A DNA stretch of 64,000 nt from Odiellus spinosus (Eukaryota; Arthropoda; Arachnida; Opiliones; Phalangiidae). The position numbers were made by a program, and so were the translations under genes. Numbering within the stretch: the first letter of the stretch is position 1; the number at the start of each line of letters is the position of its first letter. The notes beneath the pieces were generated by a model that was not told where the DNA came from, ran no database searches, and saw only the letters and a program-made list of their open reading frames with translations. Below are positions 24,301 to 62,269 of this stretch, piece after piece. The stretch lies in contig OY987230.1 of NCBI GenBank assembly GCA_963920705.1, positions 4,154,001 to 4,218,000 on the forward strand. The letters run 5' to 3'.

Positions 24301-25764
24301 TTCACATATGCCGAAGGTTAAACCTTTCGTCAATAAAATTAATTCACCTTTTGTTAGAGTTCGTTTTGATAAGTTTACTACATTATCCAATAATAAAAAC
24401 ACATAATGTAACACTGATTAGTAAAACATAAAACACATTAAAATCAAAGTTAATAAAAAATAAACCTAAAATAGACGATGCAAAAAAAGAGGGGTTATAT
24501 ATGAAATAGGATGTGAATGTAACAAAAAATACATAGGACAGACTAAAAGACAGCTAAAAACAAGACAAACCGAACATAAAAATTGTGTAAAAAAACAAGA
24601 CGAAAATACCGGATTAGCAAAGCATATCAAAATAAAAAACATAAAATAGACTGGAATTCAACAAGGGTTTTGTGTGAAGAAACAAACTGCATGGTACAGG
24701 AGATGTTTTAAGGAGCAGTGTATATTAGAGATAGAGGTAAATTAAATTTAGATATGGGTACTGTAAACATAGGGGGATGGGGAGGATTTCAATTGAAGGA
24801 TAGAAATATAAAAAATAGATAAGATAAGAGACCAAAGGTAATAATTATTGTAAAACAAATGTAGAACCGACAATTGAAACTTGTAAATGGCTGAAGAAGG
24901 ACCGCGGTCCGAAAGCTCCCGCATAAATTTTATTATGTTTTAAATAAAAACTTAAACTCCATGAAGTAGCAGGAACTCATTTTTATTGATTTAAATAAAT
25001 ATATATAAAGAAACTTGTTATGTAGAGAGACGGCTGCGGAGACATTGGAATTTGGAAATGAGTGGCCAGTCACTTAACGTAATCGGTGTACATGTGTACC
25101 TTTGACTGTACTAAAGCGATTACGAGTAATCTTTCAAATCCCTTCCTTTGACAATGCTAAATTGATTACGCCTAATCCGTAGTTGGTGTACAGGGATGGA
25201 AAACGTCAGAGGCTTCTTTTTCTCACCTCATCATCTCCCTCCTTAATGTGAAGATTACGGTATTAGGCCTAACAAGCGCTCTACCAGTAAGAGAGTTAAG
25301 TGACGCGGGGTTTTCTTAGTATTTGGCCATTTGTTATCTCATTGTAAAATAAATAACTTTCGGATCAAATTTTAACCAAAAAGTTTGAAACTACCTCTTT
25401 TAAGATACGAAGAGACAAGAACAGCAACGGTCATCTATCAGTCTCGAGCGGGGACGAGAGGGTCATGGATTTGTTAAAACATTTGCGCAATCGATTTCAA
25501 AGCATTGAAGCCCGCAACACTACGGCTAAGGAAAGTCTAACGGAAGAAGACCCCGCAGTAGGACACGAATCACCATCTCAAGATGTCCAGTTAAACGGAA
25601 GTTTATCGACAATAGACACTTTGCGTTTGTCCCCCCAACCAAGCCCCCTTGATTTTAAAAGAGAAAAGAGTCCCGCGGAAGTCAAACATAAACCAGATTC
25701 CCCCAGGGAATTTGTTAAAGAAGTCATTTGTCAAAATAATCATTTGTGGTGGCGGCCCTGGTGA
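11451..25764 (+). CDS. HES: HES / Hairy-E(spl) family bHLH-Orange transcriptional repressor, five coding exons
   Basis: Coding exons are 11451-11492, 15619-15720, 16669-16846, 19070-19326 and 25405-25764. All have GT-AG borders and phases 0, 0, 1, 0 that close exactly, giving 312 aa. Exons 2-3 encode the bHLH: basic region KPLMERRRRARIN with the family's proline, then helix 2 RLEKADILEMTV. Exon 4 carries the Orange domain (FQEGYKLCMLEVAKFV, about aa 126-141). Exon 5 ends in WRPW-stop (aa 309-312), the Groucho-recruiting tetrapeptide. Known family role: DNA-bound repressors downstream of Notch and in segmentation and neurogenesis. VTKPL and TRLEKAD favour E(spl)-like over Hairy/Deadpan, but this is not settled. 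The loop is about 7 residues longer than in fly E(spl) proteins. Introns are 4.1, 0.9, 2.2 and 6.1 kb, all repeat-filled. The first ATG of exon 1 was used. A 5' UTR exon is not placed. Confidence 0.94.
12357..12388. repeat. Poly(A) tract
   Basis: A run of about 31 A residues in HES intron 1. Similar runs occur at about 28329-28359 and 29430-29466. They could be tails of old retroposons or slippage-prone microsatellites. No adjoining element is recognised. Confidence 0.7.
13205..14346. mobile_element. Foldback / inverted-repeat element in HES intron 1
   Basis: The ends are inverted copies containing GAAACCCTCCTTTGAAGTCT (left 13217-13236, right near 14314-14333). A second inverted match further in (GGAAGATTAAAG..GAGGAACGGCCAC, about 13368-13393 against 14134-14160) shows arms of about 200 bp, diverged and partly interrupted. 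The centre has no transposase. It is a non-autonomous DNA element by structure. The target duplication was not resolved. Confidence 0.6.
14440..14500 (+). repeat. Terminal fragment of the GTCGGGGAGGT family
   Basis: Contains AGTCGGGGAGGTAATATT followed by TTTTCCAACTG, like the end of copy B at 6049-6080. The rest of 14347-15618 (HES intron 1) holds nothing I recognise. Confidence 0.45.
15983..16402. mobile_element. Small inverted-repeat element with CCTATAA microrepeats in HES intron 2
   Basis: It starts CAGGGCTCCCAG and ends CTGGGAGCCCAG, a 12-bp inverted repeat with one mismatch. The inside of both ends is built of ACCTATAATACCTATAA-type repeats. The short CAGGG-like end resembles hAT-type MITEs, but I could not find a convincing 8-bp target duplication. 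Confidence 0.55.
17180..18665. mobile_element. Foldback element in HES intron 3
   Basis: The arms are about 300 bp: 17361-17660 is matched in reverse complement by about 18655-18350. Shared blocks include TTAAAGGTCTCT, AATCACGCTCAAAA, AGTTGACCCCTGAATTTTTT and AGAAAGGCGAGT. The sequence before the left arm and the central part recur at 29385-30175, so the element is a dispersed family. No transposase is seen. A 97-codon frame at 17271-17564 lies inside the left arm and is not a gene. Confidence 0.75.
19590..19837. mobile_element. Hairpin MITE in HES intron 4
   Basis: The arms are about 60 bp and nearly perfect. The left arm (about 19593-19652) runs from ATACGAAATTTACGAGC to TAGGATTTTCACAC. 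The right arm (about 19778-19834) is its reverse complement. About 125 bp of unique sequence separates them. The high arm identity suggests a fairly recent insertion. Confidence 0.7.
19838..20522. mobile_element. Non-autonomous inverted-repeat transposon in HES intron 4
   Basis: It starts CAGACTATAGGATTTTGGC and ends with the complementary CTATAGTCTG. The inverted match continues inward (TGCTGAAAA, ACAACTTTTG, GTTGTACAACTTCG) for about 80 bp. It abuts the hairpin MITE directly. No open frame. The superfamily is not assigned because no clear target duplication is visible. Confidence 0.65.
20640..21900. repeat. Direct repeat with TTAGG motifs and CATTCGACCGACAT minisatellites
   Basis: Two direct copies of about 240 bp lie at 20740-20985 and 21370-21605. 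They share blocks such as TTTATAAA, AGTGCTCATTT and CCCGGGAATTT. Each is preceded by a short TTAGG-type run and followed by 18-19-bp repeats of the type CCATTCGACCGACAT (about 21057-21150 and 21710-21790). The arrangement suggests one tandemly duplicated module. No gene is recognised. Confidence 0.6.
22371..22404 (-). ncRNA. Hammerhead-ribozyme-like motif in the Penelope 3' region (main copy)
   Basis: The same CTGAAGA / GGACCGCGGTCC / GAAA arrangement as the + strand copy, with an identical core. The palindrome and both flanking boxes survive in both copies. Confidence 0.5.
22473..24305 (-). CDS. Penelope-like reverse transcriptase with GIY-YIG endonuclease
   Basis: The open frame is about 610 codons. 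The N-terminal part has the family's ADKGGKIVVLDSKDY stretch. Reverse transcriptase motifs follow: SLDVINLYGSIP, then GLAMGNPLSAPIANLVMEHIE-like sequence, then the catalytic FMDD in WKRFMDDVFLI. Near the C-terminus GVIYEIGC..KKYIGQT..QLKTRQTEH is a GIY-YIG nuclease, with Cys residues before the YIG half. RT plus GIY-YIG is diagnostic of endonuclease-bearing Penelope-like elements, which nick and prime at the target. The frame begins without a clear ATG and is somewhat short for the family, so the start of the protein is uncertain. It is probably not active as it stands. Confidence 0.93.
   Translation of the reverse strand: MNLLEVCAQTEDQLRRLEINDQTKQDIRNLVKNNYSKTSKVINLNKNEKHALKMLKNDKSIKIVQADKGGKIVVLDSKDYSSKMLKILHSEGYTKLKSDPTDKIDKKVHNIINDAIINKEIEKDKKFRYFPPIIKVPHIYGLVKIHKKDNPLRIIVSSINCPTYTCAKQLVEIISPLVGNNDCSIKNSQEFVTDIKKLVLDADQEICSLDVINLYGSIPIPLALKILKTKLKSDKTLGNRTTLSLETILKLTEISLTETYFLFEDNYYSQTKGLAMGNPLSAPIANLVMEHIEGSILKKIIIKPNIKLWKRFMDDVFLIKNKTLTVAKLLEIVNKTSKDIQFTYEGENDKCLPFLDVLVKHDNKVITCTMYQKPTHARSFLKFRSSHSEKIKLGIIKSFKNRIECLSDEPNKDKNIFKQQFRNSGYPNHIVNQIFNSQNVKNNIPKEKPEHVITLPYIKGITEKTIRQLITHNVTLISKTSNTLKSKLIKNKPKIDDAKKRGVIYEIGCECNKKYIGQTKRQLKTRQTEHKNCVKKQDENTGLAMHIKIKKHKIDWNSTRVLCEETNWYRRCFKEAVYIRDRGKLNLDMGTVNIGGWGGFQLKDRNIKNR
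24403..25000 (+). mobile_element. Inverted partial copy of the Penelope-like element
   Basis: The reverse complement of 22892-22296, with modest divergence. It includes the GIY-YIG region (encoding IGCECNKKYIGQTKRQ on +) and the 3' untranslated end. It is placed immediately upstream of the main copy's 5' end, in opposite orientation. Confidence 0.9.
24891..24925 (+). ncRNA. Hammerhead-ribozyme-like motif in the Penelope 3' region (copy 2)
   Basis: The sequence shows CTGAAGA (fits the conserved CUGANGA box), one A, the self-complementary stem GGACCGCGGTCC, GAAA, a short GC-TCCC-GC hairpin, and ATA. Hammerhead motifs are known in the terminal repeats of Penelope-like elements. Stem I is not obvious and stem III is minimal, so activity is uncertain. 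Confidence 0.5.
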
Positions 25765-38130: not shown

Positions 38131-41100
38131 AAGGTTCTGTTAAATCGTCCCCTGTCAGCTTTGCTATTATGGAATCAATATTGAATTCTAATTTGTTTTC
38201 GAAAACACTTTCAGAAGTGTCAAACATTAAACTAGGGTTTAATTCTTGCCAGGAAGGACGCGTTTGGTTTTCTTCAGTGGTTTTCTTCGTTGGAGTCAAA
38301 CTGCTTTTCCAAACTTTCAATTTCAGTTCCTGATAACTAGAATTCTCCAATAATTGAGAAGAGGTGCAAGCGGATTTTTCCGAATTTCTTTCTTCTTTAT
38401 CAACGGATGATAATTTTCTCTTGACCATAAAAATGGGTTTTTTCGCGTTTCTTTCACCTTGAACAAAAGTTTTCTTCATTTTCTTGAATCCGCCTCTTGC
38501 CGTGTCATTTTTTACGTCAATGTTTGGGTTTTTATCAACTGATTCGACAGAGCTGGATCTTTTACGGATCATTTCTCCATTGGATTTCTTAACAACCAAA
38601 GATTTGGATCTTTTCTTGACGATTTTTTCAGTTTCAGTTTTTGTCTGAATGTTACTATATAAACCCTGGTCTAAGGAGCTCTCTGGGGTGGCGGAATGCT
38701 CTCCTTTTTCCTCCATCTCTTGAAGTTCATCGTTTTTACCCAGAGATTGAACCAGCTCTGATAATTCTGAATTTAAAAATTGTTTAAACAAGATATAGAA
38801 TCACTAATTGGTACCTGGCTTATAGAAAATAAAGGTACAGTATATAGAAATAGGCTTATTCGATCGGATAATAGAAATAGGCTTAGATGTGGGAAAAATA
38901 TGAAAAAAACTTTGCCGAGGGGGGAAAGACTTACCGAAGGGGGAAAAAAGACTTTGCTGAGGGGGGAAAAAAGACTTTGCTGAGGGGGAAAAAAAGACTT
39001 TGCTGAGGGGGAAAAAAAGACTTTGCTGAGGGGGAAAAAAAGACTTTGCTGAGGGGGGAAAAAAGACTTTGCTGAGGGGGGAAAAAAGACTTTGCTGAGG
39101 GGGGAAAAAAGACTTTGCTGAGGGGGGAAAAAAGACTTTGCTGAGGGGGGAAAAAAGACTTTGCTGAGGGGGGAAAAAAGACTTTGCTGAGGGGGGAAAA
39201 AAGACTTTGCTGAGGGGGGAAAAAAGACTTTGCTGAGGGGGGAAAAAAGACTTTGCTGAGGGGGGAAAAAAGACTTTGCTGAGGGGGGAAAAAAGACTTT
39301 GCTGAGGGGGGAAAAAAGACTTTGCTGAGGGGGGAAAAAAGACTTTGCTGAGGGGGGAAAAAAGACTTTGCTGAGGGGGGAAAAAAGACTTTGCTGAGGG
39401 GGGAAAAAAGACTTTGCTGAGGGGGGAAAAAAGACTTTGCTGAGGGGGGAAAAAAGACTTTGCTGAGGGGGGAAAAAAGACTTTGCTGAGGGGGGAAAAA
39501 AGACTTTGCTGAGGGGGGAAAAAAGACTTTGCTGAGGGGGGAAAAAAGACTTTGCTGAGGGGGGAAAAAAGACTTTGCTGAGGGGGAAAAAAGACTTTGC
39601 TGAGGGGGGAAAAAAGACTTTGCTGAGGGGGGAAAAAAGACTTTGCTGAGGGGGGAAAAAAGACTTTGCTGAGGGGGGAAAAAAGACTTTGCTGAGGGGG
39701 GAAAAAAGACTTTGCTGAGGGGGGAAAAAAGACTTTGCTGAGGGGGGAAAAAAGACTTTGCTGAGGGGGGAAAAAAGACTTTGCTGAGGGGGGAAAAAAG
39801 ACTTTGCTGAGGGGGGAAAAAAGACTTTGCTGAGGGGGGAAAAAAGACTTTGCTGAGGGGGGAAAAAAGACTTTGCTGAGGGGGGAAAAAAGACTGCTCA
39901 GGGGGGAAAAAAGACTGCTCAGGGGGGAAAAAAGACTGCTCAGGGGGGAAAAAAGACTGCTCAGGGGGGAAAAAAGACTGCTCAGGGGGGAAAAAAGACT
40001 GCTCAGGGGGGAAAAAAGACTTTGCTGAGGGGGAAAAAAGACTTTGCTGAGGGGGGAAAAAAGACTTTGCTGAGGGGGGAAAAAAGACTTTGCTGAGGGG
40101 GGAAAAAAGACTTTGCTGAGGGGGGAAAAAAGACTTTGCTGAGGGGGGAAAAAAGACTTTGCTGAGGGGGGAAAAAAGACTTTGCTGAGGGGGGAAAAAA
40201 GACTTTGCTGAGGGGGGAAAAAAGACTGCTGAGGGGGGAAAAAAGACTTTGCTGAGGGGGGAAAAAAGACTTTGCTGAGGGGGGAAAAAGACTTTGCTGA
40301 GGGGGGAAAAAGACTTTGCTGAGGGGGGGAAAAGACTTTGCTGAGGGGGGGAAAAAGACTTTGCTGAGGGGGGGAAAAAGACTTTGCTGAGGGGGGAAAA
40401 AAGACTTTGCTGAGGGGGGAAAAAGACTTTGCTGAGGGGGGAAAAAGACTTTGCTGAGGGGGGAAAAAAGACTTTGCTGAGGGGGGAAAAAAGACTTTGC
40501 TGAGGGGGAAAAAAGACTTTGCTGAGGGGGAAAAAAGACTTTGCTGAGGGGGGAAAAAAGACTTTGCTGAGGGGGGAAAAAAGACTTTGCTGAGGGGGGA
40601 AAAAAGACTTTGCTGAGGGGGGAAAAAGACTTTGCTGAGGGGGGAAAAAAGACTTTGCTGAGGGGGGAAAAAAGACTTTGCTGAGGGGGGAAAAAAGACT
40701 TTGCTGAGGGGGGAAAAAAGACTTTGCTGAGGGGGGAAAAAAGACTTTGCTGAGGGGGGAAAAAAGACTTTGCTGAGGGGGGAAAAAAGACTTGGCTGAG
40801 GGGGGAAAAAAGACTTGGCTGAGGGGGGAAAAAAGACTTTGCTGAGGGGGGAAAAAAGACTTTGCTGAGGGGGGAAAAGACTTTGCTGAGGGGGGAAAAA
40901 AGACTTTGCTGAGGGGGAAAAAAGACTTTGCTGAGGGGGGAAAAAAGACTTTGCTGAGGGGGAAAAAAGACTGCTGAGGGCGGAAAAAATACTTTGCTGA
41001 GGGCGGAAAAAATACTTTGCTGAGGGGGGAAAAAAGACTTTGCTGAGGGGGGAAAAAAGACTTTGCTGAGGGGGGAAAAAAGACTTTGCCGAGGGAGAAA

Positions 41101-44100
41101 AAAGACTTTGCCGAGGGGGGAAAAAAGACTTTGCCGAGGGGGGAAAAAAGACTTTGCCGAGGGGGGAAAAAAGACTTTGCCGAGGGGGGAAAAAAGACTT
41201 TGCCGAGGGGGGAAAAAAGACTTTGCCGAGGGGGGAAAAAAGACTTTGCCGAGGGGGGAAAAAAGACTTTGCCAAGGGGGAAAAAAGACTTTGCCGAGGG
41301 GGAAAAAAGACTTTGCCGAGGGGGGAAAAAAAGACTTTGCTGAGGGGGGAAAAAAAGACTTTGCTGAGGGGGGAAAAAAGACTTTGCCGAGGGGGGGGAA
41401 GACTTTGCCGAGGGGGAAAAAAGACTTTGCTGAGGGGGGAAAAAAGACTTTGCCGAGGGGGAAAAAAGACTTTGCCGAGGGGGGAAAAAAGACTTTGCCG
41501 AGGGGGGAAAAAAGACTTTGCCGAGGGGGAAAAAAGACTTTGCCGAGGGGAAAAAAAGACTTTGCCGAGGGGGAAAAAAGACTTTGCCGAGGGGGGGGGA
41601 AGACTTTGCCGAGGGGGGGGAAAAGACTTTGCCGAGGGGGGGGAAAGACTTTGCCGATGGGGGGAAAAAGACTTTGCCGAGGGGGGGAAAAAGACTTTGC
41701 CGAGGGGGGGAAAAAGACTTTGCCGAGGGGGGGAAAAAGACTTTGCCGAGGGGGGGAAAAAGACTTTGCCGAGGGGGGAAAAAGACTTTGCCGAGGGGGG
41801 AAAAAGACTTTGCCGAGGGGGGAAAAAGACTTTGCCGAGGGGGGAAAAAGACTTTGCCGAGGGGGGAAAAAGACTTTGCCGAGGGGGGAAAAAGACTTTG
41901 CCGAGGGGAGAAAAAAGACTTTGCCGAGGGGGGAAAAAGACTTTGCCGAGGGGGGGGGAAAAGACTCGGCCGAGGGGGGGAAAAAGACTCGGCCGAGGGG
42001 GGAAAAAAACTCGGACGAGGGGGGGAAAAGACTCGGCCGAGGGGGGAAAAAGACTCGGCTGAGGGGGAAAAAACCTAGCAATAGGGACTCAAAAAGATTT
42101 GGAAATTATAAATTCCAAAGTCAATAAAAATCCAACTAAATCCAGTAATAACCCAATCCCTGCCAACTCCAGAGTTAAATATAAAATTTCCACTCCCTCC
42201 CGACACCCGTTTATTTCAGAGGCAATATAGTACAGGCATTCTAGCCCAAAAAAAGGGAGAACCCGGAACAAATTAGAACGGTTACGAAAATTTCCATACT
42301 TATAGAATCGAATGCGCTCTTTAACGTGGTGAGGTCTCCCAATCTCGCAGGCGTGGGGAAAATCCGCCATCTTGGAAAATGGCCGCCAAAATTACTAAAA
42401 CTATACATTACTTTAGATGTAATTATCGGATTGACTGATAGTTAGGCTCAAAATGTAGCTTAAGACACTCCGCTACTATAGCGTGCCCAATGCTGTTAAG
42501 CTTAACGTGGCTTGATCTTGAAACGTTTTTTTTCCCCGACACTTCTTTTAAAAATAGGTCCAAAGTTATTGGAATTAGTTTAGCTGAACCGTTAAAACTG
42601 GTAGCAAATGAACTTAAATAACTATACTACATTTTAAGTATACCTGGTTATGTTATGAGGTTTTTATAATTTTGGTCGCCATTTTCCAAAATGGCGGAAT
42701 ATTTTCTCTTCATTAAACGTTTTAAAGGCAAGAATACTTAGAAAAACGCGTCCTATTATTGAAACAGCGAAATTATAACAAAATCTTAAATGGTTTTCCG
42801 CGGAAACTTCATATTTCCCTAAATTTATCAATTTCACCAGTTTCAATGCATGTTTGCGAGCTTACGGTTTGATAAACGCTAAACATGTATAGAACAAATT
42901 TTGTGCGGAGTGTCTTAAGCTACATTTTGAGCCTAACTATCAGTCAATCCGATAATTACATCTAAAGTTATGTATAGTTTTAGTAATTTTGGCGGCCATT
43001 TTCCAAGATGGCGGATTTTCCCCACGCCTGCGAGATTGGGAGACCTCACCACGTTAAAGAACGCATTCGATTCTATAAGTATGGAAATTTTCGTAACCGT
43101 TTTAATTTGTTCCGGGTCAAACCTTAGAATGCCTGTACTAATATTCCCAAAGCCACCCAACACCAATTTTATTAATTAACCCAACTCCAACTCTGCCAAA
43201 AAATGAAGGAGTCCCTTGGCTTTCTGAGAGATTGGCTTTCTTCCATAGCCTTTACAGTCCTCTAAAATAGAAATAAGCAGCCTAGGTGAAAATAGAAATA
43301 GTAAATTTGTTACCATTCAGATCTTCAAATTGCTTGCGCATATGGTCAGGAATTTTCGGAGTAGATTCTATCTCTTCATTACCTAAAATGTTAAAATACT
43401 TCAAATTATTGGGCCATTTTTTTCCACTGGCACCGAAATTTTGCATTACTTAGGGAAATTTAAACCTTCAAAGATTAAATAATATCAGTTTTTTGACTCA
43501 AAATCATTTTCCTTGTAATTTTCGATTTTTGAATCAATAGTTTTCTCTGATATAGGTCTCCAAATCATTTTCCCGGAGTTTTTCTTACTATCTCCATTTT
43601 TCTCTCAAAATCATTTTCCCGGAGTTTTTCTTACTATCTCCATTTTTCTCTCAAAATCATTTTCCCGGAGTTTTTCTTACTATCTCCATTTTTCTCTCAA
43701 AATCATTTTCCCTGATATTTCCCTGTTTTTTGTCTCAAAATCATTTTCCTTGGTAATCTGTTTAGATTCTGGCCTCAAAATCCTTTTCCCTGACTTTTCA
43801 TCCTTAAAATCATTTACCCAGAGTTTTCTGCCTCAAAATCATTTTCCCAAAGTTTTCTGCCTCAAAATCATTTTCCCAAAGTTTTCGCCTCAAAATTATT
43901 TTCAGAAAGTTTTCTGCCTCAAAATCATTTTCAGAAAGTTTTCTGCCTCAAAATCATTTTCCCAAAGTTTTCTGCCTCAAAATCATTTTCCCAAAGTTTT
44001 CTGCCTCAAAATCATTTTCCCAAAGTTTTTGCCTCAAAATCATTTTCCCAAAGTTTTCTACCTCAAAAACATTTTCCCAAAGTTTTCTGCCTCAAAATCA

Positions 44101-47100
44101 TTTTCCCAAAGTTTTCTGCCTCAAAATCATTTTCCCAAAGTTTTCTGCCTCAAAATCATTTTCCCAAAGTTTTCTGCCTCAAAATCATTTTCCCAAAGTT
44201 TTCCGCCTCAAAATCATTTTCCCAAAGTTTTTGCCTCAAAATCATTTTCCCAAAGTTTTCTGCCTCAAAATCATTTTCCCAAAGTTTTCTGCCTCAAAAT
44301 CATTTTCCCAAAGTTTTTGCCTCAAAATCATTTTCCCAAAGTTTTCTACCTCAAAATCATTTTCCCAAAGTTTTCTGCCTCAAAATCATTTTCCCAAAGT
44401 TTTCTGCCTCAAAATCATTTTCCCAAAGTTTTCTGCCTCAAAATCATTTTCTCAAAGTTTTCTGCCTCAAAATCATTTTCTCAAAGTTTTCTGCCTCAAA
44501 ATCATTTTCCCAAAGTTTTCTGCCTCAAAATCATTTTCCCAAAGTTTTCTGCCTCAAAATCATTTTCCCAAAGTTTTTGCCTCAAAATCATTTTCCCAAA
44601 GTTTTTGCCTCAAAATCATTTTCCCAAAGTTTTCTGCCTCAAAATCATTTTCCCAAAGTTTTTGCCTCAAAATCATTTTCCCAAAGTTTTCTACCTCAAA
44701 ATCATTTTCCCAAAGTTTTCTGCCTCAAAATCATTTTCCCAAAGTTTTCTGCCTCAAAATCATTTTCCCAAAGTTTTCTGCCTCAAAATCATTTTCCCAA
44801 AGTTTTCTGCCTCAAAATCATTTTCCCAAAGTTTTCTGCCTCAAAATTATTTTCCCAAAGTTTTTGCCTCAAAATCATTTTCCCAAAGTTTTCTGCCTCA
44901 AAATCATTTTCCCAAAGTTTTTGCCTCAAAATCATTTTCCCAAAGTTTTCTACCTCAAAATCATTTTCCCAAAGTTTTCTGCCTCAAAATCATTTTCCCA
45001 AAGTTTTCTGCCTCAAAATCATTTTCCCAAAGTTTTCTGCCTCAAAATCATTTTCCCAAAGTTTTCTGCCTCAAAATCATTTTCCCAAAGTTTTCTGCCT
45101 CAAAATCATTTTCCCAAAGTTTTCTGCCTCAAAATTATTTTCCCAAAGTTTTTGCCTCAAAATCATTTTCCCAAAGTTTTCTGCCTCAAAATCATTTTCC
45201 CAAAGTTTTCTGCCTCAAAATCATTTTCCCAAAGTTTTCTGCCTCAAAATCATTTTCCCAAAGTTTTCTGCCTCAAAATCATTTTTCCAAAGTTTTCTGC
45301 CTCAAAATCATTTTCCCAAAGTTTTCTGCCTCAAAATCATTTTCCCAAAGTTTTCTGCCTCAAAATCATTTTCCCAAAGTTTTCTGCCTCAAAATCATTT
45401 TCCCTGAGTTTCTTGCCTCAAATTGATTTTTTCCTTAAATCCCCCTCAATTTTTCAGTCAAAATCACTTTCCCCGAGTATTTTTCAATCAAAATAATTCT
45501 TCCCTGATGTTTCCCGGTTATACTTTATAAATAAGGATTTAAATTGAATAAAAATCTAATTACCAGCATTTGAGGAGTCGGAGTCTTTATTCATCCTCTT
45601 AAATTCCCTGATAAGTTTGCGAGCTTGGTCGCGACAAGCTAAACTTTCTCGATAAACGCTTTCTGGGCTGACATTCTCACTTATCATCGATTGAAGAGAT
45701 TGACTGCTGTACGATGAAGAATATTTCTGCGTTCCAGGTGTGTATGTCATTAAATTAAACGAAGCGCTGGAAGGTAACTTCTTGGGAGTATCGCTGACCG
45801 AATCTAGGGTACTTTGATTATTATTTTTAATCGGTTTGGAATGATTTTGAATCATCTTCGGAGTATTTTCGACAGTTTTGAGTGGATTTTGAGTGATCTT
45901 AGGCGTCTGTGGGATTGCAGTAGTCTCGGAAGTATTTTCAGTAGTTTTTGATGAATTTAGGACCGCTTCGAGAGTATTTGAACTTATTTCCACGTTTATG
46001 GTTATGTTTTCAGAGTTTTTGGTAAGATTTTCAGCCTTTTTCGTCTTATTGTTAAAGTTTACCATCTTTTTGGGGTTATAAATCTTCTGGGTACCATTTT
46101 CATCCTTTTTATAATCGCATACTGTCTTTCTCGAGTTTCCAGCCTTTTGAGTGTTGTTTTCAGACTTTTTCTTAATGTTTACAGTAAGTTTGTTGTTTTC
46201 AGACTTTCCCTTAGAATTTGTCGTCATATCAGCCTTTGGGGCGATGCTTCGTTTGTTTTCTTTCTCGGAAAGTTTTTGAACATTTTTCGCAATGTTTACC
46301 GTCTTTTGGGAGATATTTTCAGGCTTTTTGGTTAATTTTTCAGCTTTTTTGGTGCTTAAACTGTTTATAGACTTTTCACTTTCGCTTACAGTCTCAGCTT
46401 TTTGGGCAATGGTTTTGGACTTTTTGGTAAAGTTTACGGTTCTTTTAGCATTCGCAGCCTTTTGGTTTGATACTTCATTATCGAAACTCTCCAAATTTTC
46501 AATTGTTTCGCTAGGTTCTTTAAACTTCCTTTTGGGTATTTCTTTGTTAGTTTCGTCATTCTTACGTATTTTTGACTTTGGATTAGCCACGTTTTTAACC
46601 TCCAGAGATTTATTACAACATCCGATGTCATCAGTCTCATCTAAAAATTATAAAATTGATTTCCACTCTCTAATAATTTTTAAATCTAACTTTATACCGT
46701 GACAAGGCAGCCACTTTCCTTTATAGTTACTGACGAAGCTATATTTCCTTAGTCGATCCTTAAAATTTATAATAACGTCATAAATTGTTTTAAACTTAAG
46801 GAAATAATTTAAAAATAATTTTAACTTACCCCTAAAGTCATCTCTAATCCCTTCAAGGCTCTTTTAAAAGCGGGCTTCATCTCATTCCGGTAATCTTTAC
46901 CGCAGCAGATAGTCTTAAAATAATCAACATGATACAATTGAACGTCAATTTACGTAATGATGGTCAAAAATGAGGGATAACTTTCCCAATGCACAATGAA
47001 CTTAACTTTAAATGAACCGAATTTTAAGAACTCAAATAAAAAAAGTGTAAATTTACCGAGAGAACTTTGTCCTTGGAGAAGGGTTTAATTTCTGAAACTG

Positions 47101-53797: not shown

Positions 53798-56700
53798 CTA
53801 CTCGGTTTTATCTTTGCCAGAGTCACGATGATGTAGAAAGACGCAACTAAACAAGAAAACACTAATCATCATGGAAAATGCGCTTAGATAATATGGATAC
53901 GCTGATTTGATGAAACGCTCGTATTGAGTATGGGTCAAAGGTCGAACCGAAACTTGAGTCGAGCTATACAAATGAGTGTAACCTAACTTGTTATAATCCA
54001 CTTTGAATTGATATACGCCGTAAACGTCCGGAACTTTAAAATTAGTCACGTATTCGTTTCCTAAACAAAAACAATTAAATATTTAATTTAAAGTTAATTA
54101 GCAATACACGTAGAACTAAACTAATACGTTATCAATACCATTTAATAAAGCGATAAGAGTATCATTTACTGATAATGTTTTACCTTAAGTATCGATCAAT
54201 ATCAGTGATAAAGGATAGAAATTACAATACCCAAAGGCCCACCCTATGAAAATTATAAGTAGGTCCAGACTAGGAGATTTTCTTCGCTTTGCTCGTTACG
54301 TAACGTTCACGCGCTTCGTATGTATTTCGCGAAAACATCATTCATACAACTGTACCCCAGGGAAAAATCTTTTCTAATTCTAATATTGTTCCTCGATTAA
54401 TATTATTTCCTTTTGGAAGACTATGGAAATCCCGTTTGGAGCCATTTCTAATTATTACCCTTCCTTTGGGAACTCCTTGCTCCAATCGCGTTACTTCAAA
54501 TTGAATAAATACAATCAATTCTAACTATTAAGTTACTCAATCGTATTTTTCTTTGAATATCTCTTTAAAGGGAGAATGAAAGGCCGAAACAACTTATTTT
54601 AAATCGATAAATAATGCTAAAATAATGAGAAAAACAATAATAGAACTCACCAAAAATATTTCATTATTTTATAATCAATTTCCGAGTACGCGTATTTAAA
54701 AATAAGCGTACTCGCTCGTGATTGGCTACTAGATATTATGCGAATTTTAAAAAAACACAGGTCGTGCTCGCCGATTTCACCGAGCTAGGCAGCCAAGGCT
54801 TAGCATCTGCAAGTTTCGGAACTTTGGAAATTGATTATAAAATAACGAAATATTTTTGGTGAGTTATATTATTGTTTTTCTCATTATTGTAGCGTTCTTT
54901 ATCGATTTAAAATAAGTTGTTTCTGCCTTTCATTCTCCCTTTAAGAATGTAGATGATCTATCAATGTTTTTTTTTTAATTTGGCTTCTCTTTTTATGAGA
55001 AAAGGGGGCCTAGCTTGCAACAGGGACTACTGCTGGAAAGGTTATGGACAGGGAAGACCGGGAAAAGTCAGGGAATTTTAAAATGAACAAAAAAGTCAGG
55101 GAATTTGAAAATGAACAAAAAAGTCAGGGAATTTAAAAATTAACAAAAAAGTCAGGGAATTTGAAAATGAACAAAAAAGTCAGGGAATTTGAAAATGAAC
55201 AAAAAAGTCAGGGAATTTAAAGATCTTTCAAGAAGCCAGAAATATAACTTTTACTATTATTAAAAGGCTTACGATCTTCATTTTATTGTAAATGGGGAAC
55301 AGCGCTTGTTTTCTAGCCTTTTCCGGGGCAAGTGAGGGAACTAGACTGTACTTCGCGTTAAAGGCAAAAGCGAAAGAGAAAAAAATATTTTTATGTGGAG
55401 TGGCAGTCGCCGTCTAGACTTGGTTATAAAGGTAACACTCTGACGCAACGCAACGGGTATCTCGAGAGCGCGAGAATCTTTAATAGCTTCAAATTCGGTT
55501 TTAATAGTTGATTGGCCTTTGAAATGCTTTTAAAATAAAGTTTTGTTTAAGTCATTTTTTTTGACTTTGATGAGTAAATTTAGCTATTTAGAACTAACAA
55601 ATATTCGAGAATTAGATTCAAATGGCCTGACCAAACCAAATGAAGAAGAATTAGACATTTTGAAAACACAGGTTTCATGGTCCCTTTAAGAATTCCCAAT
55701 GCAACTTCTATCCTATCTTGGTTTCAGTTATAAATATCGAGATTTTACCGATACAATATCAGTATTAGTATTAATAAATCATACAGAGGTTTTAACCGAT
55801 CCCATATCAGTTTCAATTATCCGATAAGGAAAATTACTCGTCGAGTTTTCGCCTCGATATTTGACACACCATAATTCTATTATTCAAAAGGTACTCGAGT
55901 AGCAAAAATTTCCCTCAAATTCCTCGTGACAAGTAGGGATGTGCGAGTACTCGTTTATCGTTGAGTACACGATCGAGTACTCGAAAGTAGAGTTCAAAGA
56001 CTCGAAAAAAAATTCGAGTATTAGGTCTAGGCTCGATGAAGGCTCGAATCTGGGATTTGGGATGGCGTCATACATTTTTTTCGCGAATTATAGCTTATAA
56101 AATTATGCAAAATGTTTTAAAATAGCTTTTTTAACACAAATTTAACCTAAAAAATTAAATAAACTTAGGTTCAAAATCAAAAGTTTATTAAATTAGTACC
56201 TAGATCTTAAGCAAACTCCATTTTCAATAATATGAGAAAAAATATTTTACAAAATTTATCACTTATTAGTCAGCAGGAGTTTTTATTGCTGAGCAGAAAC
56301 AAGAAAGAGTTATTATTGGTCAGGAGAGAAGGATGAATATAACAGGAATGGGGGAACCATGAATTAGCTATAAAACTTGCTTAAAATCAAAAGTAAAACT
56401 ATCACTGTATAGTGCAGAATTCTATTAGTATTTTGAGTTGCAAGGTCGCTGAAATGGCATCAAATGTAGAACAACTTAATACTTCTTCAAATGCAGATAA
56501 CATAAGAATATGCTCAAATCACTAATGATAGCTAGAGAGTAGAGACTACTATAACACATTAGTTCTGACTCGTTTTTAACAATAACTTATTAAGTATATT
56601 GAAATAAAGCTAAGCTTGATAATACTCGAAACGAGTATTCGAGACTCGAAACGAGTACCCGAGACTCGAAACGAGTACCCGAGACTCGAAACGAGTACCC

Positions 56701-59700
56701 GAGACTCGAAACGAGTACCCGAGACTCGAAACGAGTACCCGAGACTCGAAACGAGTACCCGAGACTCGAAACGAGTACCCGAGACTCGAAACGAGTACCC
56801 GAGACTCGAAACGAGTACCCGAGACTCGAAACGAGTACCCGAGACTCGAAACGAGTACCCGAGACTCGAAACGAGTACCCGAGACTCGAAACGAGTACCC
56901 GAGACTCGAAACGAGTACCCGAGACTCGAAACGAGTACCCGAGACTCGAAACGAGTACCCGAGACTCGAAACGAGTACCCGAGACTCGAAACGAGTACCC
57001 GAGACTCGAAACGAGTACCCGAGACTCGAAACGAGTACCCGAGACTCGAAACGAGTACCCGAGACTCGAAACGAGTACCCGAGACTCGAAACGAGTACCC
57101 GAGACTCGAAACGAGTACCCGAGACTCGAAACGAGTACTCGATAAGTAAAATTTTTCAAGACTCGGCTCGAGGCCGAAAAAAGAGGACTCGCACACCCTT
57201 GTGGCAAGGCTTAATTTTCACTCTAGTGCTCGAGTAAAAAATTAACGAGATTTTATTATTTTTATATTAATGCTTAGTGCTCATCTGTTATAGAATACGG
57301 TTTCTATTCGATTTTGGGTAGTTTAATGGGGGAAATAAAAGGTCCACTCACCAAAATATTTAATTGATTTTTCGACGGTGTGGTGCTTATTGCATCGAAA
57401 TCCGAAAGTTTACTGCGAGGCAATCATTGTACCGAATACTATTAACCTTGGAAGAAAGGCCCTCAATGTTTAAATATAGGGACGATGTCGAGTAGCAATG
57501 TTGATTTTGATAGCCTTACCCCCCACAGATCCTAATGAAACTTGGAACAAAGCTTCTTCAGGATGGCATACAAAAATGAAGAAAATTTGGTTGTGTAGAA
57601 ACAAGTACTATTTCAGTTATACGACTTAAAAGTATTATCTAAAATGAGGCTGAAAATAGGCGTTATCGCCCGATTGTGTGCTTCACTAAAAGCAGGCCTG
57701 TAAGGTAGGGAATATCTATCCAAGGGGCTTGGCAGAGTTATTAATACTACATGGAACTACCGTGTAGTATGACGTTTTTACACCTACTATAATTTCTCCT
57801 AAGGAATATGTTTCACCAGAAAAAACACGAACACAACATGGTGCACATTCCTATCTTACTAAAAAACTTCACGGCCTAAAAAAAGGCTCGTCGTAGATCA
57901 GATTGTCCACTTTTTTAGAGATAAAAAAAATGGCTCTTTTTTTAGGCTGTGAAGTTTTTCGATAAGATAGGATGTTGTGTTCGTGTTCTGTCTGGTGAAA
58001 CATATTCCTTGGGAGAAATTATAGTAGGTGTAAAAACGGCATACTACACGGTAGTTTCATGTAGTATTAATAACTCTGCCAAGCCCCTTGGATAGATATT
58101 CCCTACCTTACAGGCCCGCTATTATTGAAGCACACAATCAGGCGATAATGCCTATTTTCAGCCACATTTTAGATAATACTTTTAAGTCGTATAACTGAAA
58201 TAGTACTTGATGCTACACAACCAAATTTTCTTCATTTTTGTTTGCCACCCTGAAGAAGCTTTGTTCCAAGTTTCATTAGGATCTGTGGGGGGTAAGGCTA
58301 TCAAAATGAACATTGCTACTCGACATCTTCCCTATATTTAAACACTGAGGACCTTTCTTTCAAGGTTAATAGCATTCGGTACAATGATTGCCTTGCTGTA
58401 AACGTTCGGATTTCGATGCAATAAGCACCACGCCGTCGAAAAATCAATGAAATGTTTTGGTGAGTGGGCCTTTTTTTTCCTCCATTAAACTATCCAAAAT
58501 CGAATAGAAACCGTTCCCCCCTTCTTCGAGAGGGAAATGATATACCAGCGCAAACTTAGCCATAGTACTAGCGAAATACGGAGAAAAAAAAAACTCCCTC
58601 ACTTCTCTACCACCCTTATAATTATATTTCAAACCACCCCAGTGACCTAGAATAAGAAAGAAAACCGTTGACTATAAGAGTGAGGGAGTAGTGTGCCCAT
58701 TTTCTGGAGGGGTGGAAAATGAACCACAAATATGTCAATTACTCGTACCCGACTCCACACCCAAAATTCACTGCTCACACAGGCCTAGTTTTCACCAATA
58801 TAATATCAGTTACATAGATAAAGGTTTTTACCATCGAGAAATAACCCCCAGAAGGAGTCGTAAGGCAAGCAAAATAATTTTAGACCATTTTCCTCTTGCT
58901 TAAGAAGCCCTCCATCGTGTGTCTCTGGAGTCCTAAATCTACCACAACATGGCTGCGTCCAATAGAGTCAATGAAATTTTTCAATAGAGGCCAAGTCCCA
59001 ACCGCTGTTAATTAACCATTTCTAAACTTTATAAATTGTTTTTTTGGATTAGGAAACCTATGGTAGGTTGTTCCTTTCACTTCTCACCACGAAATTAAAA
59101 GTAAAAGTAAAAATTTTGGCCAGCCATTCGCGGGAGAGCTGAGAGACGCGACGTCATACGCTGATAAAAGCAGCCGCTACCCTAGGGAAAAAACTCGCCA
59201 CGCGCGCCGCCAAAACTCAAAATAAAAAAACAATCACGCCGCTGGATTTTTTTTCCTTGCGTCGGCGTCTAACCCGACATATATGAAAGCTGACAGTTTG
59301 CCCTAAATTATCGTTTCTTTGAGGTGTTTAACGGTGAGAGAAAAAATCATTAGAGACTTTTGTTTGCCTTACGACTCCTTCTGAGGATGATTTCTCGATG
59401 GTTTTACCAATATAATACAGGCCTGTGCGAGTACTCGACTCGAGACTCGAAAAGTAATATTTGGGACTCAAGAAACTTTTCGAGTCCGAAAAAACCAGAT
59501 ATTGGGACTCGAGAAGGACTCGTGAATGGCAGTTGCTATTGGTTGTAAGAAGCTTGACGTCACAATTGAAAGAGAGGCGAAAGAAACCAAAAGTAAAACT
59601 GAAGATTAAGCCCCACAAGCCAAAATCCTTTGTATATTGAAAAGTCATTTTAACGACTCGAATTCATGGGGAGGACTCGATTAGGACTCGAATTTATGGG

Positions 59701-62269
59701 GAGGACTTGATTAGGACTCGAATTTATGGGGAGGACTCGATTAGGACTCGAATTTATGGGGAGGACTCGATTAAGACTCGAATTTATGGGGAGGACTCGA
59801 TTAAGACTCGAATTTATGGGGAGGACTCGATTAAGACTCGAATTTATGGGGAGGACTCGATTAAGACTCGAATTTATGGGGAGGACTCGATTAAGACTCG
59901 AATTTATGGGGAGGACTCGATTAAGACTCGAATTTATGGGGAGGACTCGATTAAGACTCGAATTTATGGGGAGGACTCGATTAAGACTCGAATTTATGGG
60001 GAGGACTCGATTAAGACTCGAATTTATGGGGAGGACTCGATTAAGACTCGAATTTATGGGGAGGACTCGATTAAGACTCGAATTTATGGGGAGGACTCGA
60101 TTAAGACTCGAATTTATGGGGAGGACTCGATTAAGACTCGAATTTATGGGGAGGACTCGATTAAGACTCGAATTTATGGGGAGGACTCGATTAAGACTCG
60201 AATTTATGGGGAGGACTCGACTTGGACTCGAAACATTGTTTTTAAGCCAGTTGAAGGACTCGAGAACTCGACACTAACTTTAAATAGGACTCGAGACTCG
60301 AAAAGTCGTTTGGTTTGGACTCGAGACTCGACTCGAAACCCTAAAAATTGGACTCGCACAGGCCTGATATAATATCAGAATGAGTTATTGATATAAGGTT
60401 TGATATCTAAACTTTTAAAATTCTGAGATACGCGTTTTTAGTGTAAATATAAATCACAACAGAGGAACCTCTGTGTTGGTATCAATTTTGGTTAAACTCG
60501 GATATTATCCAACACTATTTTTAAACATAATTATTACAAAACATTGACATAATTTAGATTTACCTTTTTTCTTCAATGGGGCCCTGACAAATGGATCGAT
60601 ACGAACAAATTCAAGCTGCAAGTCCTCGCTTTCATAAGGCACCCATTTACTCTCTTTTAAGATGTGTACTTCGATAGAGTAAACCTGAAAGAAAGCAGTT
60701 AAGGAAATAAAATTCCTTTGAAATTGGCGAAACAACGTACAACATCGTCCATAATCGTATAAGCTTCGGGTGGCGTAGTTTCTCCTTTCTTATGATGCTT
60801 GATATTACCGGTCTTAAGAACGCCTTTTTCTTTAAATACCCATTGGGTCAAAGCGACTGTCAACTCAAAATTTCCTGATTTCTCAAACCTGTGACATTTA
60901 TCGAGAGAATATGTTTAGAAAAATCTGTTACCAATCAAATTTCAACAATTACTTTTTGCCTCCGATAGCTTTTTGAACCGGAGCTTGAAAGAAATGATCG
61001 CTGAAAAAGTCCAAAGACCCGGAAAATACTACTCTAGCGTTATTACGAGCTTGTAGGGCCGAGATTAACAAAGTGCTTCGGCCAACCGAATGAGGGTACT
61101 AGTTACGAAATAAAGAAATTTTACAAATTTTTACTTACTAGAGTTTTTAAGTTTTTTTTAATCTGCCGGTAAATTTATAGTAAATACTCACCTCGGTAAT
61201 TTTACTGTCTGTGTTGTAGCAATAAGCTGTCGGAGATGCTCTCAACACTTCTAATACTAATGGATTTTCACGATCCGAAATAATTCCCACACCCTTGAAC
61301 AATAGAGGATTAATATTTTTGCTTCCAACGACTGTTGGGGCATCAATTAAATCAGTAGGTTCCGCAACAATCAACGTGTGCTAATGAAATATCCCAAAAT
61401 ATTATTCAATTCACGAGGTTTTAAGTTACGGCATTAGTTTAAAAATTACTTTTCCATCATCTGAAAAGTCGTAATTTAAATGATCAATGACTGCCGATCC
61501 TTCTTCATCAATTTCAAAACCATTTTCGCTAGCTAATTCGCGTATTAGATCCCCGACTTCGGAATTAGATGCAACTAAAACATTGCCACCGTTGTCAATG
61601 AAGTCCGTGATAGCTTGGACATTTAGGCTACCACCAAATTCTAAAACAATGTAATTTTTCAGTAAAATATATTTCTTTCCAACTTCACTGTCACTCGGGT
61701 AGAATTGCAGTTTATCTAACCGATATGTGCCTTTTCCAAAAAAAAGACCTTTTTTTGTTTGGAAAAGGCGGATAGTTTTTGTTGGGTGGGTTACATAAGG
61801 CGCAATCCTACTGTAAAGTATACCTTCGACAGACGGTGAAAATAAAATTAAATGTTCGTAAAGATATTCGCCATATTTCACTAGACTTAATCCTGGGTCG
61901 TCGGCCGTCTTAAATGATAGTTTAAAGCCTCTATCTGAGGAAAACGTTTAATTTTAAAACATTAAAAACTAAATTTAAATTCAAGGTAAATAAGTGTGAG
62001 CCAATGGTGATGGCAATCCTGCTATTATGGCCCCTAATTTACGCGACATGGCCTGTACTCCAGGGAGCCTGGAATCCAGGAGGCACGCCATACACCAAGG
62101 CCTACTAAATTAAAATTTAATTACCTTGTAAAGTTTTAAAAAAGATTGAATGACTCTCCCTAATCGCTAAATTATCGAGCAAAACAAGAGTTTCGCCACC
62201 TGCATTAACTAAACTCGAACATAATATGGTTGTAATTGCCAATATTAGAATTTCCATTAGATACTTCAT
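53798..62269 (-). CDS. DDOST: OST48 / DDOST, oligosaccharyltransferase 48-kDa subunit, eight exons
   Basis: Exons (5' to 3'): 62269-62125, 61934-61824, 61640-61450, 61380-61192, 61098-60953, 60888-60741, 60684-60564, 54060-53798; all phases close, 437 aa (human about 456). DDOST is a non-catalytic subunit of the ER oligosaccharyltransferase that N-glycosylates nascent proteins. Seen: a signal peptide (aa 1-23, ending LVNA), then [78 protein letters not shown], one C-terminal membrane segment (aa 410-426) and a short polar cytosolic tail, all typical. Start: the ATG at 62269 gives the clean signal peptide; an in-frame ATG at 62323 would add 18 residues ahead of it. Introns 1-6 are 56-190 nt. 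Intron 7 is 6.5 kb and full of repeats. Intron 2 is 183 nt with no in-frame stop. Confidence 0.97.
54564..54950. mobile_element. Inverted-repeat MITE with ~125-bp arms in DDOST intron 7
   Basis: Left arm about 54566-54690 begins TTAAAGGGAGAATGAAAGGC. The right arm (about 54825-54948) is its reverse complement with few changes. The ends lie in a TTTAAA/TTTAA context, so the duplicated target could be TA or TTAA. Not coding. Confidence 0.75.
55067..55225. repeat. 28-bp minisatellite, about 5.5 units
   Basis: GTCAGGGAATTT(T/G)AAAAT followed by GAACAAAAAA, repeated at 55067, 55095, 55122, 55151, 55179 and 55207. Confidence 0.85.
55934..57200. mobile_element. Non-autonomous hAT-type element carrying a 20-bp minisatellite (DDOST intron 7)
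   Basis: The ends are TAGGGATGTGCGAGTACTCG (left) and, in complement, AAGGGTGTGCGAGTCCTC (right). The flanks GTGACAAG (55926-55933) and GTGGCAAG (57201-57208) match at 7 of 8, consistent with a hAT 8-bp duplication with one later change. The subterminal DNA is rich in ACTCG/CGAGT. The centre is the perfect 20-bp array at 56641-57120. No transposase. It is related in its ends (TGTGCGAGTACTCG) to the element at 59418-60366. Confidence 0.85.
56620..57142. repeat. 20-bp minisatellite, 24 identical units
   Basis: The unit GAGACTCGAAACGAGTACCC is repeated without any change from 56641 to 57120, with variant half-units at both edges. Each unit contains the hairpin ACTCG-AAA-CGAGT. All frames are open on both strands (177-206 codons), which are artefacts. 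Complete identity means recent expansion or homogenisation. Confidence 0.98.
57295..58516. mobile_element. Large foldback element, ~600-bp arms (DDOST intron 7)
   Basis: The left arm (57295-57895) and right arm (about 57925-58516) are reverse complements at roughly 95% by eye over the whole length. Markers include ACGGTTTCTATTCGATTTTGG at the outer ends, CCAAGGGGCTTGGCAGAG in the middle, and GGCCTAAAAAAAGG / TTTTTTTAGGC near the centre. The loop is only about 30 bp, so nearly the whole element is a hairpin. No coding frame. The target duplication was not resolved. Confidence 0.85.
58787..59417. repeat. Inverted repeat pair flanking 0.5 kb
   Basis: 58795-58877 and 59362-59417 share, in opposite orientation, ACCATCGAGAAAT, AGAAGGAGTCGTAAGGCAA and CCAATATAATA. 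The right arm is the host site into which the 59418-60366 hAT-type element inserted, so this repeat is older than that element. Confidence 0.65.
59418..60366. mobile_element. Non-autonomous hAT-type element carrying a 30-bp minisatellite (DDOST intron 7)
   Basis: The perfect 15-bp inverted ends are CAGGCCTGTGCGAGT. The perfect 8-bp target duplication is ATATAATA (59410-59417 and 60367-60374). The subterminal DNA has many GACTCGA motifs, and the centre is an array of 30-bp units built from two GACTCGA boxes. No transposase. The 949-bp structure looks young. Confidence 0.92.
59655..60225. repeat. 30-bp minisatellite, about 19 units, 15 of them identical
   Basis: The unit is GAGGACTCGATTAAGACTCG followed by AATTTATGGG. 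From 59761 to 60210 all units are identical. The first three carry TTAGG instead of TTAAG. Because 30 is a multiple of 3, a ten-residue peptide repeat ([10 protein letters not shown]) appears in one frame. It is not a gene. Confidence 0.97.

Follow-up and report, generated by a model that had tools for sequence, protein, structure and literature searches.

The window analysed here, a stretch of 64,000 bp (C6:4154001-4218000) in the 443-Mb genome of Odiellus spinosus, carries on its minus strand, at 60.56-61.88 kb, exons of the oligosaccharyltransferase subunit OST48, of which the segment at 61429-61881 matches PF03345 (5.2e-22) and a further exon, recognised by motif at ~60.6 kb, ends by eye at ~60.56 kb beside a GT donor. 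Downstream of these exons, adjoining the donor, lie two related DNA transposons, each with its own tandem array. The first-pass annotation had placed both in one intron, which the OST48 exon and the GT donor make plausible, although a downstream exon was not found. Elsewhere in the window, a 610-aa open reading frame on the minus strand (22473-24305) has a reverse transcriptase match of 28.6 bits, under the Pfam cut-off of 29.6, and by eye it resembles a Penelope-type element.

Element 1 is a non-autonomous hAT element of 1,267 bp on the forward strand (55934-57200), with the termini TAGGGATGTGCGAGTACTCG and AAGGGTGTGCGAGTCC and the palindromic end on its left. Its left subterminal zone (55934-56019, forward strand) holds CGAGT/ACTCG boxes and the palindrome CGAGTACTCG, and its right tip is AAGGG. 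The flanking target site duplication (TSD), read from the sequence, is GTGACAAG on the left (55926-55933) and GTGGCAAG on the right (57201-57208), the two agreeing at 7 of 8 positions. A 20-bp tandem array on the forward strand (56624-57142) comprises 26.0 copies with a 99% match of the unit ACTCGAAACGAGTACCCGAG, in which boxes occur in both orientations; the array proposed earlier is thus real, but the 24 copies then counted correspond approximately to the perfect ones only. The array is private to this copy: all 25 genome matches to its dimer (32-base pattern, up to 2 mismatches) fall within the window array. The body of the element has 38 genome matches (its own included), and three relatives with bodies 81-84% identical show, by eye, a single unit-like stretch at the position of the array.

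Element 2, also non-autonomous, is a 949-bp hAT element of the CAGGCCTG tip type (59418-60366, forward strand). Its terminal inverted repeats (TIRs) are perfect 15-bp partners, the left one reading CAGGCCTGTGCGAGT (59418-59432, forward strand) and the right one lying at 60352-60366 on the minus strand, and the duplication ATATAATA is preserved at 8 of 8 positions on both sides (59410-59417 and 60367-60374). Its 30-bp array (59650-60232, forward strand) was estimated earlier at about 19 units and measures 19.4 copies with a 98% match; all boxes in it share one orientation. Three units of an older type are followed by 15 private units of an -AAG variant and by one terminal variant, and all 15 genome matches to a dimer of the -AAG variant lie in the window. 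The right subterminal zone (60215-60366, forward strand), which alignment shows to be common to a transposase-bearing copy on C18, has 40 scored genome matches, its own included. The array keeps at least 134 bp from either tip, and the right outer 134 bp are intact. In each element the array is single, with no mirrored copy in the TIRs, and the TIRs of element 2, at 15 bp, are not the long, tandem-repeat-holding TIRs of a foldback element.

The two elements share the end TGTGCGAGTACTCG, present exactly at 55940 and 59424; three matches to it with up to 2 mismatches occur in the window, against 0.07 expected. The hAT identity and the kinship of both elements, as proposed in the first-pass annotation, are supported, and the 8-bp duplications it described are confirmed. 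It had given 55934-60366 as one range, which we separate into two elements, as other repeats fill 57209-59409. A composite element over the whole interval is ruled out by the two TSD-bounded insertions and the other repeats between them, and common descent of the two arrays from one is rejected as well, since their units differ and a lone unit-like stretch stands at the same position in relatives of element 1. Extension of the arrays beyond the element borders, named at the outset as a finding that would speak against the idea, did not occur: both lie inside. Five open reading frames of at least 120 aa overlap the elements, and because all of them are read-through of the arrays, we regard both elements as non-autonomous. 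Between them lies a palindrome (57297-58514) with two 543-bp arms, 94% complementary and 132 nt apart, probably another foldback-type repeat, and directly to the left of the element 2 target site an element with 45-bp inverted ends (91%) occupies 58830-59402.

A genome-wide search for these ends, as had been proposed, returned 74 exact matches to the element 2 tip CAGGCCTGTGCGAGT (its own two included), 6 to the element 1 tip TAGGGATGTGCGAGT, 59 to TAGGCCTGTGCGAGTACTCG and 224 to the shared 14-base end TGTGCGAGTACTCG, while reversed-pattern controls for the end motifs gave 0 genome matches each time. From 66 end-centred loci, many of them overlapping, we extracted 28 distinct copies, admitting only end pairs with an 8-bp TSD of at most 2 mismatches and collapsing identical sequences, so that L071 and L082 stand outside the 28; L078 and L095 are paired but were excluded by a tip-length rule, and 21 of the 66 loci had no TSD-bounded end pair. 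The 8-bp TSD typical of hAT elements, which the entry rule required within these 2 mismatches, is perfect in 22 of the 28 copies and shows 1-2 differences in the other 6. Short hAT TIRs follow a YAGNG rule, and the ends found here (CAGGCCTG, TAGGCCTG, TAGGGGTG and TAGGGATG) are short TIRs of this type, with CAGGCC, TAGGCC, TAGGGG, TAGTGG and TAGGGA tips among the 28. The family has moved recently: L073 and L082, which carry TAGGCC tips, are identical over their 636 bp but sit at different loci, with different flanks and with different, perfect TSDs.

The pentamer ACTCG occurs 197 times in the window, against 62 expected, and is strongly concentrated at the ends of these elements. After masking of the five main arrays, the 28 copies carry 500 boxes in 7,764 bp of ends (64.4/kb), 59 in 9,184 bp of middles (6.4/kb) and 67 in 64,763 bp of flanks (1.03/kb). 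The motif is therefore subterminal throughout the family, transposase-bearing relatives included, as the first-pass annotation had supposed; members lacking box clusters near their ends, which would have told against it, were not met with, as 27 of the 28 copies have at least 7 non-array boxes and the exception, L032, with 1, has a doubtful end pairing. The two ends also differ in layout. In 25 of the 28 copies one tip carries the palindrome CGAGTACTCG and the opposite tip CGAGTCC, and in the 26 orientable copies, read inward, the right end holds 214 CGAGT versus 21 ACTCG and the left end 140 versus 170 (counts to which the arrays close to the left tips of L001 and L005 contribute), with 70 palindromes on the left versus 2 on the right. 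Some copies were found via the palindromic end, but among the 11 retrieved by the CAGGCC tip alone, without such selection, 10 have the palindrome. The same asymmetry holds for the different tip types and for copies with a transposase. Among 30 loci centred on hAT domains (some of them duplicates), more than 3 boxes per 300 bp occur only in L037, L051 and L066. In the last of these, on C33, a dense CGAGT/ACTCG cluster near the hAT domain (positions 354-540 of the locus) ends in CGAGTACTCGCCCAGCCCTA, and the locus perhaps represents a sister group with the tip TAGGGCTGGGCGAGTACTCG. As a putative transposase box, ACTCG is well supported by this distribution.

The strongest of 150 scored hAT-domain matches in the genome, on C7, lies between ends of this type, the upstream one reading TAGGGGTGTGCGAGTACTCG and the downstream one TGTGCGAGTCC. 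The encoded transposase combines a BED finger (PF02892, 1.6e-10) with a hAT dimerisation domain (PF05699, 3.2e-22), and in alignment with Hermes both aspartate regions and the SSAASER glutamate correspond, with the D, D and E positions matched; we take these to be the catalytic residues of Hermes. This copy sits inside a pol gene that we call gypsy-like from reading its translation; its frame is interrupted by a stop codon, and one of its tips is damaged. C18 carries a second transposase, 52% identical to that of C7 over 407 residues and split between two pieces that lie in different frames. The flank on its 3' side terminates in the right end of element 2, including one 30-bp-like unit (ATTAGGACTCGAAATCATAGGGAGGACTCGG), and its left end was not found in the 841 bp upstream. 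Adjoining this copy is a DNA-polymerase-like frame with, by eye, a DTDS motif (positions 2240-2730 of L051, C18), perhaps a Maverick/Polinton. A third transposase, 45% identical, on L052 (C17:11.53 Mb), lies in an open frame of 955 aa, and downstream of its gene we found a 32-bp x 5.2 array containing CGAGTCC (positions 83-247 of the locus). Sequence related to element 1 also accompanies transposase remnants: the first ~167 bases of its body recur at five places on C2 (83-84% identical), four of which are 228-241 bp, by subtraction, from a fragment with a 42-43% match to the transposase.

Array length varies widely within the element 2 type, which we sized by the body-to-right-end distance of the 28 measurable among 40 body matches (its own included). 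At most 3.0 unit-equivalents were found in 21 of these copies and 5.0-5.2 in two, whereas the other five have 19.0, 19.4 (the window copy), 27.8, 35.7 and 37.8. With 10-100-bp units and 1.3 to 37.8 unit-equivalents among the 28, these are minisatellites. The distance is exactly 20 bp in four copies and exactly 50 bp in nine, that is, one unit apart, and the 560 bp of the window copy equal 20 + 18 x 30. The array of C11:3386005 (27.8 unit-equivalents) is putative: its 814 bp of additional sequence gave no exact match to the unit among the matches listed. Genome-wide, the common variant of the 30-bp unit has 159 exact matches; those listed include at least 33 on C7, at least 26 on C11 and at least 11 on C6:6834, and since 59 of the 159, all on the reverse strand, fall outside those listed, there are further arrays elsewhere in the genome. 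At C18:9678997 the right-end distance fits 13 units, and by our own count none of all 97 forward matches is an exact unit there.

Among the copies read, those closest in body to element 2 are C7 (100% over 125 bp, 37.8 unit-equivalents of the common variant), C4:6817 (99.2%, 1.6 unit-equivalents) and C6:6834 (98.1% over 105 bp, 19.0 unit-equivalents), all three with more internal sequence than element 2 between left end and body; one unit of the C7 array is cut at 19 bp. Copy number in this type has thus turned over fast, but part of the element 2 array may be inherited, because C7, the closest body relative read, has a long array. Other box-bearing units have been amplified elsewhere in the family, as in L005 (24 bp x 9.2), L018 (24 bp x 5.6), L001 (18 bp x 5.6) and L095 (41 bp x 4.2). 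Arrays of at least 8 copies are absent from the 14 copies read with TAGGGG, TAGTGG or TAGGCC tips, though these are box-rich, so that box-richness alone does not suffice.

Tandem arrays are common in this genome irrespective of these elements. In 183 kb of flanks and control loci, a non-random sample after removal of duplicates that consists of flanks and the 30 loci of mostly unrelated hAT genes, we counted nine distinct unrelated arrays of at least 8 copies (periods 10-60). The window itself holds two very long ones, 23 bp x 140 (38902-42073) and 29 bp x 58 (43767-45430), each readable as a long repetitive open reading frame; their consensus units lack ACTCG, and five ACTCG occur at one edge of the former. 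Assuming 0.46 kb per copy and the background array rate, four of the 27 measured copies outside the window have at least 8 unit-equivalents against 0.61 expected (Poisson P 0.004), or three against the same expectation when the C11:3386 copy is dropped (P 0.024), values that are optimistic because the copies are related by descent. The element 2 type is thus modestly enriched for arrays above background, so that some feature of the family must favour them, perhaps no more than its seeds; ready-made tandem seeds suffice to explain the enrichment. The earlier suggestion that two arrays from one motif reflect a recurring process and not an accident stands as to recurrence in the family, but its second half is weakened by the frequency of unrelated arrays. 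Hairpin formation was considered and rejected as a general cause. Although folding is stronger than in shuffled controls for dimers of three units (20 bp, z -2.7; 24 bp, z -2.8; 18 bp, z -5.2), this is not so for the 32-bp unit (z -0.6) or for the 30-bp unit (z +1.2), which has given rise to most of the large arrays.

We consider it likely that the arrays arose by local tandem amplification of subterminal boxes in BED-finger hAT elements, and that they are probably neutral. Both elements are non-autonomous members of one BED-finger hAT group whose subterminal repeat, ACTCG/CGAGT, is most likely bound by the BED finger of the transposase; it forms a palindromic pair, CGAGTACTCG, on the left and successive direct CGAGTCC boxes on the right. 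One or two box-bearing units pre-existing in the subterminal zone may then have been amplified in tandem, by replication slippage or unequal exchange, leaving the outer ends intact. The array of element 1 would have been amplified wholly at this copy, and that of element 2 with respect to at least its 15 private units. On this account the arrays would be neutral side products of sequence rich in boxes and seeds, in a genome prone to minisatellites.

Neutrality has to be weighed against selection on the arrays, the extra boxes raising an element's own mobilisation or acting as a sponge that lowers transposase for the family. Such selection would explain why the amplified sequence contains the likely binding box, why the family has amplified different box-bearing units of 18, 20, 24, 30 and 32 bp, and why, of the three copies read whose partial bodies are nearest to that of element 2, two (C7 and C6:6834) have long arrays, and the same idea has been proposed for Tetris (PMC4079207) and touched on for Galileo (PMC3688188) in the portions of those papers at hand. 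Yet neither the 20-bp array nor the private -AAG units recur anywhere else in the assembly, 21 of the 28 measured copies have at most 3 units, and the clearest recent transposition (L073, L082) is in a type without any array above 4 units. Box phase and position moreover matter in Hermes, according to the accessible part of PMC10368747, whereas the element 2 array lies at least 134 bp from the tips, and unrelated arrays are common in the genome. We therefore judge selected arrays unlikely and, on sequence grounds, do not favour a role in mobilisation or titration; that non-autonomous hAT elements repeatedly convert their own transposase boxes into high-copy arrays, and that a few such copies limit the whole family by soaking up transposase, seems very unlikely.

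Transposition itself might instead drive array growth, if repair of the gap left by excision copies the sister element, slips among its boxes and adds units. Seeds of at least two box repeats are common in the family, copies 98-100% identical to the partial body of element 2 differ between 1.6, 5.2, 19.0 and 37.8 unit-equivalents, and one C7 unit is truncated, all of which would speak for this route. Ordinary slippage or unequal exchange, however, yields the same patterns, and some non-transposon arrays are equally perfect (L031, 22 bp x 43, 99%), and we judge this route rather unlikely. It is improbable, at the other extreme, that ACTCG has no recognition role and that the ends are merely repetitive, giving rise to generic minisatellites. 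The nine unrelated arrays in 183 kb and the two very long ones in the window would agree with this, but it leaves unexplained the fall in box density from 64 per kb in the ends to 6 in the middles and 1 in the flanks, the left/right asymmetry kept across tip types and transposase-bearing copies, and the lack of box clusters in most unrelated hAT loci. Local amplification of pre-existing boxes, probably without consequence for the element, thus remains our preferred reading.

Several known systems resemble parts of this picture. Non-autonomous DNA transposons are recognised seeds of satellites and minisatellites, as summarised in the consulted part of a review on MITE-derived arrays (PMC9659126), in which the amplified unit is not tied to a transposase box, unlike here. 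The portions available of two further reports describe tandem arrays of whole MITEs in corals (PMC2872659) and, in cod, hAT-MITEs inserted in tandem where inversions have their breakpoints (PMC12368964). For perfect arrays of subterminal boxes in hAT elements, we found no report among the matches listed in a search of open-access titles and abstract beginnings.

Within the hAT superfamily, Herves of Anopheles gambiae has a short motif repeated in both ends, as here, and four direct repeats of it suffice for transposase binding; its motif, CG/AATTCAT, is different, and the sections seen describe no long arrays (PMC3143072). Hermes shares with our elements and their relatives a BED-finger transposase with matching catalytic and dimerisation regions and short subterminal boxes. 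As far as the accessible text goes, two BED domains of Hermes cooperatively bind a quasi-palindromic pair at the left end only, the high-affinity palindromic pair being found near the left tip alone and boxes 1-5 of the right end having one orientation (PMC10368747). The boxes of our elements are likewise concentrated near both ends, with a palindromic pair at the left tip, and CGAGT is probably bound by the transposase BED finger in a similar way; the box sequence differs, and the same text describes no long perfect arrays for Hermes (PMC10368747). From the left-palindrome, right-direct layout we predict that ends in this BED group are recognised in the Hermes mode as well.

Expanded tandem repeats in transposon ends are, on the other hand, known from outside this superfamily. 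In Galileo, of the P superfamily, tandem repeats in the TIRs contain identified THAP binding sites, and one copy in D. willistoni has expanded repeats, according to the parts seen of PMC3688188 and PMC4168063; tandem repeats in a transposon end are common to both systems, but Galileo has a THAP finger, long TIRs and tested binding, whereas here a hAT transposase with a BED finger is the presumptive binder. In Tetris (TIR-220) of Drosophila virilis, likewise a non-autonomous DNA transposon, internal tandem repeats have expanded into longer arrays and satellites, which its authors propose to provide extra transposase sites and, at first, a higher transposition efficiency (PMC4079207, in the portion available). 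Tetris is, by that portion, a foldback element with 220-bp repeats within long TIRs, as opposed to the 15-bp TIRs of element 2 and units of 20-30 bp that hold a 5-bp subterminal box in hAT elements with transposase-bearing relatives in the same genome. Tandem repeats of transposase sites are thus known in foldback elements, and a similar outcome is seen here in hAT elements, of which relatives with one or two units, intermediates and transposase-bearing copies coexist in one genome, so that natural copies differing in array length could be used to test whether extra transposase sites help, hurt or have no effect.
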